Positions 39,088-56,452 of a stretch of 64,000 bases of DNA are shown piece after piece. The first letter of the stretch is position 1; every line of letters begins with the position of its first letter. The DNA comes from Chloroflexota bacterium (lineage in GTDB: Bacteria; Chloroflexota; Dehalococcoidia; Lucifugimonadales; UBA3495), in assembly GCA_009837355.1 (NCBI GenBank), contig VXTR01000068.1, forward strand, positions 224,178 through 288,177, in the 5' to 3' direction. A program made the translations under genes and the position numbers. A model generated the notes under the pieces. It saw only the letters and a program-made list of their open reading frames with translations. It made no database searches and was not told where the DNA came from.

Positions 39088-39159
39088 ATCAGTACAGTAC
39101 TCCCCTCATCTTTCGTCATACCGCTACCGTCGCGTCGCGAGGCGACACTACGCGCGGGA

Positions 39160-39255
39160 CGCCGGATTTAGCACCTGACCCCACTGGGTTAGCGGGATTG
39201 GTTGCCAGGCTTCACAGGGCCGTTCCCTCCGCCTGTCTGGATAAGGGTTCCAGCA
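39160..39255 (-). promoter_or_regulatory. SAM-I (S-box) riboswitch aptamer
   Basis: Minus: UGCUGGAACCCUUAUCCAGACAGGCGGAGGGAACGGCCCUGUGAAGCCUGGCAACCAAUCCCGCUAACCCAGUGGGGUCAGGUGCUAAAUCCGGCG; matches S-box conserved core (UUAUC-AGA-GG-GGAGGGA-GGCCC-UGAAGCC-GGCAACC-GGUGCUAAAUCC); P1 GCUGGA/UCCGGC. Confidence 0.93.
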
Positions 39256-53830: not shown

Positions 53831-54781
53831 CTACCACCAGATTTTGCCCTGCGCCTCTTTCGCCAGCGTTTCGTAATCCCGTGTCCAGAGCTGACTGCTT
53901 AGGTACTTCCACCCTCCGTCGGCCAGCAGACACACCACGTTGCCGCTTTCCATCCGCTCCGCGTGCTTCAGCGCCCCGGCGATTACCGACCCGGACGATA
54001 TGCCCGCGAAGATACCCTCCTTGTCCATCAACTCCTTCGTCATATAGAACGAGTCAAAGCTGTTCACCAGGAGCCGGTTGTCCAGCATATTGATGTCCAG
54101 TATTGGCGGGATGAACCCGTCCTCCAGCCGCCGCAGCCCCGATATGAAATCATCCGGCTCTGGCGCCACCGCGATGATCTTGATGTCGCTGCTGTGCTCC
54201 TTGAGCCGCCGTGCGTTGCCCATCAGCGTGCCCCCGGTGCCCAGCCCTGCCACAAACACGTCAACGTCCGGCAGCGTCTCCACGATTTCCTGCCCCGTCC
54301 CCTCGTAGTGCGCCTCCGGGTTGCCGTCGTTGCCGTACTGGTAAGGCATCAGGTAATCGTGCGGATGTTTCTCCACAATTTCCTGCGCCATCACCACGCT
54401 GCCGTTGGTGCCCAGTGTGCCGTCGGAGTAGATTATTTCCGCGCCGTATGCTTCCAGTAGGTGCGTACGCTCCACCGAGACGTTCTCCGGCATCACCACC
54501 TTCACCCTGTAACCCTTCAACCGGCCAATCATCGCCAGCGAGATGCCCGTGTTCCCCGACGTCGGTTCCAGGATGGTTCGGTTGGGCGTAATCTCCCCGT
54601 CCGACTCCGCCCGCTCAATCATTTTGAGCGCGATGCGGTCCTTCACGCTCCCCGTAGGGTTCTGCCCCTCCAGCTTGGCGTACAGCCGGACGTTGGGATT
54701 CGGGCTGAGATTCGACAACTCTACCAGCGGCGTGTTGCCGATGGTCGCCAGCAGCCCTTTGTATGGCCCCTTGGTGAGCAT
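53831..54781 (-). CDS. cysM: cysteine synthase (CysK/CysM family)
   Basis: IGNTPLVELSNLSPNPNVRLYAKLEGQNPTGSVKDRIA, EPTSGNTGISLAMIG; start MLTKGPYKG overlaps the moeB stop. Confidence 0.93.
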   Translation of the reverse strand: MLTKGPYKGLLATIGNTPLVELSNLSPNPNVRLYAKLEGQNPTGSVKDRIALKMIERAESDGEITPNRTILEPTSGNTGISLAMIGRLKGYRVKVVMPENVSVERTHLLEAYGAEIIYSDGTLGTNGSVVMAQEIVEKHPHDYLMPYQYGNDGNPEAHYEGTGQEIVETLPDVDVFVAGLGTGGTLMGNARRLKEHSSDIKIIAVAPEPDDFISGLRRLEDGFIPPILDINMLDNRLLVNSFDSFYMTKELMDKEGIFAGISSGSVIAGALKHAERMESGNVVCLLADGGWKYLSSQLWTRDYETLAKEAQGKIWW

Positions 54782-55629
54782 TACACCGCCCCGGCAGCAA
54801 CCGCTATCGGCTCCGGCGCCTCGGCTACGCCGCAGAACACTTCGTAGTCGATGAGTTTCTTTACCGTGGGGTTGTCGCCGCACAGGGGGCAGGACGGGTT
54901 GCGCCGTAGCTTCACTTCCCGGAACTGCATGCTCAGCGCGTCAATCACCAGCAGCCGCGATGACAGCCCTTCTCCAATCCCCAGAATGTGTTTCAGCGCC
55001 TCGGTGGCCTGGATGGAACCCACCAGCCCGGTCAGTGCCCCCAGCACACCGGCCTCGGCGCAGTTGGGAACCATCCCCGGAGGCGGCGGCGCGGGGAACA
55101 GGCAGCGATAGCAGCCCTGCCCCGGCAGGAATACCGTGGCCTGCCCGTCGAATATCAGGATGCTCCCGTCAATCAGCGGCTTGTTCAGCAGGTAGCACGC
55201 GTCGTTCACCAGGTAGCGTGTCGCAAAGTTGTCCGCCCCGTTGATAACGATGTCGTACTGGCCGATGATGTTAAAGGCGTTTTCCGACGTCAGCCACTCT
55301 TCATGCAGCACCACGTCCACTTCAGGGTTGTACGACTTGATGTTGTCCAGAGCAGACTGCACCTTGGGACGGCCCACGTCCGGCGTGTGGTGCAGGATTT
55401 GCCGCTGCAGGTTGGAAAGTTCCACCACGTCGAAATCCACGATGCCCAGCTTTCCGACGCCGGCCAGCGCCAGGTACACCGCTGACGGCGAACCCAGCCC
55501 GCCCGCGCCGATAATCAGCGCGCTGGCTTCCATCATCTTGCGTTGCCCGGCGCTCCCCACGTCCTGCATGATGATGTGGCGGCTGTATCGTTTGACCTGG
55601 TCGGGCGTCAACCGTAGTGGCTGGACCAT
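54781..55629 (-). CDS. moeB: MoeB/ThiF-family sulfur-carrier adenylyltransferase
   Basis: RYSRHIIMQDVGSAGQRKMMEASALIIGAGGLGSPSAVYLALAGVGKLGIVDFD; CYRCLFP; CPLCG. Confidence 0.93.
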   Translation of the reverse strand: MVQPLRLTPDQVKRYSRHIIMQDVGSAGQRKMMEASALIIGAGGLGSPSAVYLALAGVGKLGIVDFDVVELSNLQRQILHHTPDVGRPKVQSALDNIKSYNPEVDVVLHEEWLTSENAFNIIGQYDIVINGADNFATRYLVNDACYLLNKPLIDGSILIFDGQATVFLPGQGCYRCLFPAPPPPGMVPNCAEAGVLGALTGLVGSIQATEALKHILGIGEGLSSRLLVIDALSMQFREVKLRRNPSCPLCGDNPTVKKLIDYEVFCGVAEAPEPIAVAAGAV

Positions 55630-55708: not shown

Positions 55709-55764
55709 AAAAAAACCGCGCCCTCAAACCGTCAGGCGGCGGCTATCGCTGGGCGCAGGCGCGG
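55709..55764 (-). terminator. intrinsic terminator in the moeB-cysM leader (attenuator)
   Basis: Minus CCGCGCC (55758-55764) ... GGCGCGG (55716-55722)-TTTTTTT (55709-55715); perfect 7-bp closing stem plus U7, about 80 nt before the moeB start. Confidence 0.75.
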
Positions 55765-55789
55765 CGCAAAATTGCATTGAGCCTGCCCC

Positions 55790-55840
55790 CTATGTGCTGG
55801 GACAGGCGCAGGTGAAACGTGGCAGTTGTGTGGGCAGCAT
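55790..55840 (-). CDS. cysteine leader peptide MLPTQLPRFTCACPST (16 aa), candidate attenuator sORF
   Basis: ATG CTG CCC ACA CAA CTG CCA CGT TTC ACC TGC GCC TGT CCC AGC ACA TAG; two Cys codons inside a 9-bp hairpin; ATG 10 nt after the -10. Confidence 0.7.
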   Translation of the reverse strand: MLPTQLPRFTCACPST

Positions 55841-55850
55841 TTCGTCAGTC

Positions 55851-55880
55851 AGTCTATCGCCGCGCCGCCTTGGATGTCAA
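55851..55880 (-). promoter_or_regulatory. sigma70-type promoter of the leader/moeB/cysM transcript
   Basis: Minus TTGACA (55875-55880)-18 nt-TAGACT (55851-55856); -35 overlaps the upstream Rrf2 gene stop codon. Confidence 0.65.
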
Positions 55881-56359
55881 GATTGCCGACCCATGCTCGC
55901 CGCCGGAACCGGGTCCGGCAACGGCTCCCAGTTTGCGCTCCTCCGGTCGGCGGACTCAATCAGCGCAGCCTGCCGCTCCGCCAGATGCGCCAGCGTCGTA
56001 GCTTCCAGTACCTGCTGTATGGACTCTTCCACTGTTTGCCAGATTTCCTTTTGCGCGCAGCAGTCGGCAAACATGCAATCCGTCGGCAGCGTCAGGCAGT
56101 CCAGCGGGGAGGAGTTCCCGTCCAGTTCCTGCATAACCTCGTGCAGGTTCACCTGTTCCGGCGAACGCGCCAGCAGATGCCCGCCCTGTGGCCCGCGCCG
56201 GCTGTGTACGAAGCCGCTCTTGTTCAGCGCGGACATCAGCCGTTCCAAGTACGGTTCGGGAATGCCCTGCCGGTACGCTATCGCCGCCGTCTGCACTGGC
56301 CCGTCACCATAGCGCATGGCCAGTTCCACCAACGCCCGAACTCCGTAGTCAACTCGCAT
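55877..56359 (-). CDS. Rrf2-family transcriptional regulator (CymR/IscR-like)
   Basis: MRVDYGVRALVELAMRYGDGPVQTAAIAYRQGIPEPYLERLMSALNKSGFVHSRRGPQGGHLLARSPEQVNLHEVMQEL...; start site uncertain. Confidence 0.88.
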   Translation of the reverse strand: MRVDYGVRALVELAMRYGDGPVQTAAIAYRQGIPEPYLERLMSALNKSGFVHSRRGPQGGHLLARSPEQVNLHEVMQELDGNSSPLDCLTLPTDCMFADCCAQKEIWQTVEESIQQVLEATTLAHLAERQAALIESADRRSANWEPLPDPVPAASMGRQS

Positions 56360-56452
56360 CGGGATGCGCAAAACGAAACCTCCGTCCACCCGATTATACC
56401 CAATTCCGACGTCGTATGCCAACCCGTTTTGCGTTTCGCCCCAAGGCCACTT

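Follow-up and report, generated by a model that had tools for sequence, protein, structure and literature searches.

The leader that separates rrf2 from moeB in the window, by which we mean the whole 64,000-nucleotide (64-kb) stretch of Chloroflexota DNA analysed here, is very probably (about 90%) an attenuator of the classical trp type that responds to cysteine and regulates transcription through the ribosome, judging from its sequence and that of its relatives. On the minus strand, to which all window coordinates below refer, the gene order is rrf2, leader, moeB, cysM and nusA. The predicted first controlled gene, moeB (54781..55629, with its ATG at 55629), encodes a ThiF family adenylyltransferase (Pfam PF00899), and its stop is overlapped by the start of cysM (53831..54781), which encodes a PLP cysteine synthase (Pfam PF00291). 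That the downstream operon makes cysteine had been predicted originally, and Pfam together with PDB relatives bears this out for cysM; its closest solved relative in a PDB sequence search is M. tuberculosis CysM, an O-phosphoserine sulfhydrylase. Taken with the adjoining moeB and five ThiS-like proteins encoded in the window's genome, this relative suggests a sulfur-carrier (CysO-like) route to cysteine. Upstream lies rrf2 (55877-56422; Pfam PF02082), and its product, an Rrf2-family regulator, may represent a second, CymR/IscR-like layer of control beside moeB. Elsewhere in the window, a SAM riboswitch aptamer (RF00162, 69 bits, 39103-39247) constitutes a second RNA regulator concerned with sulfur amino acids.

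The promoter and the leader ORF were read exactly where they had been proposed. The -35 hexamer TTGACA (55875..55880), which overlaps the TGA stop of rrf2, and the directly read -10 hexamer TAGACT (55851..55856) are separated by an 18-nt spacer, and a consensus scan recovered the promoter with a score of 10/12. Ten nucleotides past TAGACT begins the 16-aa leader ORF MLPTQLPRFTCACPST (55790..55840; ATG at 55840, TAG ending at 55790), whose predicted 5′ UTR of approximately 2-5 nt leaves no room for a Shine-Dalgarno sequence. It is the only promoter followed by a near-leaderless short ORF of such kind within the 64-kb window, and two Cys in 16 codons would be expected by chance with p of about 0.012 for the window leader alone. 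Folding of the single sequence was rejected as proof of the element, being uninformative with a z-score of -0.64 that is ordinary for its composition. Since a single sequence could not exclude chance, comparison with relatives decides.

We aligned 34 homologous moeB leaders, mostly from one SAR202-type family; the named relatives are SAR202-type Dehalococcoidia of the Chloroflexota. The original prediction had named conservation in relatives as a check, and Cys codons, stop position, three stems, terminator and promoter are all kept in these 34 leaders. TTGACA occurs in 33 of them, being absent in one (L021), and is followed after 17-18 nt by conserved -10 variants (TAGACT, TACACT, TAAACT or TAGGCT). 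In nearly all, the ATG lies 8-11 nt past the -10 hexamer, the promoter spacing from which near-leaderless status is judged, and an in-frame ORF runs from ATG to TAG, most encoding a 15-19-residue peptide that ends in C-x-C-P-x-T-UAG, the reading frame being kept despite an N-terminal half that varies in sequence and length. The first regulatory Cys codon, UGC in the window (55808..55810), stands at codon -6 from the stop and is UGY in 33/34; the second, UGU (55802..55804), stands at codon -4 within region 1 and is UGY in all 34. Codon -6 lies outside the stems and exchanges UGU (19 leaders) and UGC (14 leaders) freely while remaining Cys, and selection on the codon is therefore indicated. For the second Cys and the Pro codon, both in region 1, pairing alone can account for part of the conservation. 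Of 83 distinct short ORFs of the near-leaderless kind, at loci that had been selected for these leaders, 73 carried at least two Cys. One moeB leader (L012, genome G007) carries a 1-nt deletion; as read by eye, another ATG restores the frame to give MPRFAGGCPHA with one Cys left, and this leader is possibly decaying or rewired. The last sense codon (55793-55795 in the window) is ACA in 30/34 leaders although it sits in the loop of stem 1:2, a conservation explained neither by pairing nor by Cys sensing.

Four RNA regions and a U tract follow the arrangement 1:2 / 2:3 / 3:4 that the original prediction had described, each of its segments reading as given, and in the 34 leaders the pairings are conserved and cleaner than that description. 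Region 1, GCCUGUCCC (55799..55807), pairs in relatives with region 2, GGGGGCAGGC (55781..55790), the switch strand, which can pair instead with region 3. Alignment and pair counts identify region 3, GCCUGCGCCC (55751..55760), with its invariant or nearly invariant CCUG, as both the 3′ arm of the antiterminator and the conserved 5′ arm of the terminator, and alignment, pairing and folding identify region 4, GGGCGCGG (55716..55723), as the terminator 3′ arm; the U7 tract (55709..55715) of the intrinsic terminator follows, and a U run is conserved. The terminator had been drawn as CCGCGCC (55758-55764) with GGCGCGG (55716-55722). Region 4 and U7 stood; the register did not, being the predicted optimum in the window's genome only (-24.5 vs -20.9 kcal/mol). 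The conserved stem is CUGCGCCC (55751-55758) with GGGCGCGG (55716-55723), so that region 3 itself forms the 5′ arm, and in relatives region 3 pairs with region 4 as CCUGCGCCC:GGGCGCRGG. In the 34 leaders, paired cells amount to 83% for 1:2, 83% for 2:3 and 86% for 3:4. Cells of 3:4 plus 1:2 are 84% paired vs 29-53% when partners are slid, and those of 2:3 are 83% paired vs 32-54%. When partners were swapped among species, native pairing strength was matched in 0/5000 permutations for 1:2, 23/5000 for 2:3 and 0/5000 for 3:4. Compensatory double changes are few because the stem arms are highly conserved. The window terminator was not called by a generic terminator consensus scan, since its loop exceeds the 8-nt limit of that scan.

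This terminator bears on how a stalled ribosome could act. Mycobacterial polycysteine short ORFs are leaderless or near-leaderless, as is predicted for the present leader, and they too are Cys-rich and located before sulfur/cysteine operons; such ORFs were predicted in PMC1262725, and PMC9031893, describing Canestrari 2020, reports for them translation attenuation and no obvious terminator. By analogy, a ribosome stalled on the Chloroflexota leader would alter access to the moeB start rather than termination, a reading with which a near-leaderless Cys uORF ahead of sulfur genes agrees. We consider this very improbable, given that a GC stem and U run occur in all 34 moeB leaders, with region 4 followed by U in 34/34. 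In addition, about 70 nt separate the end of the conserved terminator from the moeB Shine-Dalgarno sequence in the window, a distance that varies widely among relatives.

The placement of codons and stop fits transcription attenuation. The ribosome footprint reaches 12 nt beyond the first base of its A-site codon, an established toeprint value. The last Cys codon lies 12 nt before the stop in 34/34 leaders, and region 2 begins at the stop; by this geometry, region 2 stays free while the last Cys codon occupies the A site and is covered once the ribosome stands at UAG. State folding of the window leader predicts 2:3 with a stalled ribosome, the terminator with a ribosome at the stop, and 1:2 plus the terminator with no ribosome. 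In 34/34 moeB leaders and in 14/14 leaders of the sulfite reductase gene (sir), region 2 is predicted to have found a partner by the time region 4 is synthesised. Equilibrium predictions favour the terminator over the antiterminator in 28/34 moeB leaders, usually by a small margin, so the switch would be kinetic and depend on folding order, as in other attenuators. We infer the transcription start, translation, stalling, termination and cysteine response of the leader. Transcription would begin within a few nucleotides upstream of the leader ATG, and translation would initiate close to the 5′ end with no Shine-Dalgarno sequence. With plentiful Cys-tRNA the ribosome would reach the UAG just before region 2 and mask region 2, allowing region 3 to pair with region 4 and RNA polymerase to stop at the U tract. 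In the absence of a ribosome, 1:2 would form and termination would again ensue. With scarce Cys-tRNA, the ribosome would stall on the Cys codons and mask region 1, whereupon 2:3 would form before region 4 is made, pre-empting the terminator, and moeB-cysM would be transcribed.

The same leader occurs beyond moeB-cysM. A covariance model was built from the moeB leaders, with the second copy of the window's genome outside the training set, and the one further significant match in that genome was this second copy (G000:C84:17498-17610, minus strand; E 7.8e-7; locus L146, 2999-3111). It lies directly upstream of the assimilatory sulfite reductase gene and a HemD-like gene. TTGACA-N-TATAGT precedes its leader ORF, whose ATG comes 8 nt later and which encodes MQSTCKTTCLCSCSCPHKSGAGLT. 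Second matches checked across the family lie before sulfite reductase and carry 2-6 Cys codons, the extra ones further upstream in the sir leaders. Within the genus to which the window belongs, the UAG of the sir leader has disappeared, and its reading frame runs on across region 2 to a stop beyond it. A genome of another family (G035) has one leader before sulfite reductase and another, encoding MCCCTCPP (locus L155, G035:C105, 2944-3049, minus strand), before a TauE/SafE-like permease gene followed by one for a CysH-like (PAPS/APS) reductase, both named from sequence by eye. The predicted attenuator at moeB-cysM is supported by the comparison, and the best reading is that such attenuators form a small multi-operon sulfur-assimilation regulon that includes sulfite reductase. 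Under control of sulfite reductase by the homologous copy, a lack of Cys would increase sulfide production and Cys synthesis at the same time. Conserved Cys codons and stems, recurrence of the leader at sulfite reductase and a fitting geometry support the original interpretation.

An order search with the covariance model gave a match at E <= 0.001 in 32/36 genomes of the window's family (counted by eye), and a random class sample outside the order gave scattered weak matches only; these (E 1e-4 to 1e-2) were counted only with a Cys uORF and promoter, and a model-made alignment with spurious opposite-strand matches was left out of the analysis. When sulfite reductases of the class and phylum were scanned with a broad regex, standard leaders proved rare outside the order, so that class-wide presence is only suggestive, and most sulfite reductases there had no recognisable Cys leader in the upstream scan. 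Outside the order, a Cys-rich leader precedes sulfite reductase in G204, and possibly also in G227 and G593. The loci in the latter two (L228 in G227; L200 in G593, of another class) have Cys-rich uORFs before sulfite reductase, one with MPGPHRTCACTCPQ and one ending in SCCCICTSASA, with divergent flanking structure, and a wider spread of Cys leaders is possible. The leader stays beside moeB where rrf2 is 1-2 kb away (L012, L056), rrf2-moeB occurs without a leader at L014, L063, L064 and L067, and the leader before moeB is absent in a few close relatives (L009 and L014); the distribution fits an attenuator that may have been gained between rrf2 and moeB within the window's family. More tentatively, and at somewhat less than even odds, much of the Dehalococcoidia may control sulfate assimilation by cysteine mainly through attenuators of this near-leaderless Cys uORF type located before sulfite reductase. 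The moeB-cysM leader would then be a later duplicate of an older sir leader, and this transferable attenuator cassette would have reached additional sulfur operons, the permease-CysH operon of G035 among them.

The distribution also weighs on whether the Cys codons are a by-product, the leader being an ordinary rrf2 terminator, or a protein- or ligand-binding RNA whose hairpins happen to read Cys. The high nucleotide conservation in region 1, which contains the second Cys and Pro codons, speaks for this, but the Cys codon outside the stems with its free C/T exchange, the extra upstream Cys codons of sir leaders, the promoter between rrf2 and the leader, and the leaders kept where rrf2 is not adjacent make a by-product very unlikely. 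Nor did Rfam (T-box, SAM and others) give a match over the gathering score at the moeB leader or the second copy, and a relaxed search on the moeB leader yielded nothing but scores well under gathering. In Firmicutes, Cys genes are controlled by Rrf2 proteins such as CymR, and rrf2 adjoins moeB in most relatives, yet it is extremely improbable that the upstream-encoded Rrf2 truly senses cysteine or Fe-S for the operon while the leader sets only basal read-through, as this leaves the Cys codons, the alternative stems and the recurrence of the leader at sulfite reductase unexplained; Rrf2 control and leader control could act together.

A cysteine-responsive transcription attenuator of this form shares with the trp, his and leu attenuators end-product codons in a leader ORF, here under selection, three alternative and exclusive stems, an intrinsic terminator, the placement of stop and codons, and a biosynthetic operon downstream that makes, in this case, cysteine; it differs from them in its amino acid, its predicted near-leaderless ORF and its occurrence in Chloroflexota. 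The uORFC-8-2 motif upstream of cysS in Rhodobacterales is a proposed terminator-type Cys attenuator, thought out as a sensor of Cys-tRNA, in which a uORF likewise places its conserved Cys codons in a stem and a terminator follows (PMC8632094). That motif is alphaproteobacterial, has tandem Cys codons and controls cysteinyl-tRNA synthetase, whereas the present leaders carry C-x-C and lie before sulfur assimilation genes, moeB-cysM and sir, in Chloroflexota. In the Sinorhizobium trpL attenuator the leader ORF begins right at the 5′ end of the mRNA, close to what is predicted for the present leaders, but this attenuator is alphaproteobacterial and uses tryptophan codons (PMC7298713). Cys-rich leaders of mycobacterial sulfur genes, mentioned in the original prediction, are indeed known (PMC1262725; PMC9031893), and differ from the Chloroflexota leaders, with their conserved terminator and antiterminator, in regulation without a terminator. 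The prediction had further mentioned no described case in this lineage, and our search of the open-access literature, which leaves most subscription journals outside, likewise found nothing relevant on such an attenuator in SAR202 or Chloroflexi. The attenuator is apparently unreported in Chloroflexota, and it unusually combines a predicted near-leaderless leader with a terminator, along with a new set of targets.

These findings offer a concrete, testable sulfur control circuit for a largely uncultured lineage, and indicate that attenuation of the classical kind, using near-leaderless leader ORFs, can act as a multi-operon cysteine regulon beyond the well-studied phyla. The covariance model and motif can annotate cysteine regulation in many metagenome-assembled genomes, and also the likely start sites of leaderless mRNAs.
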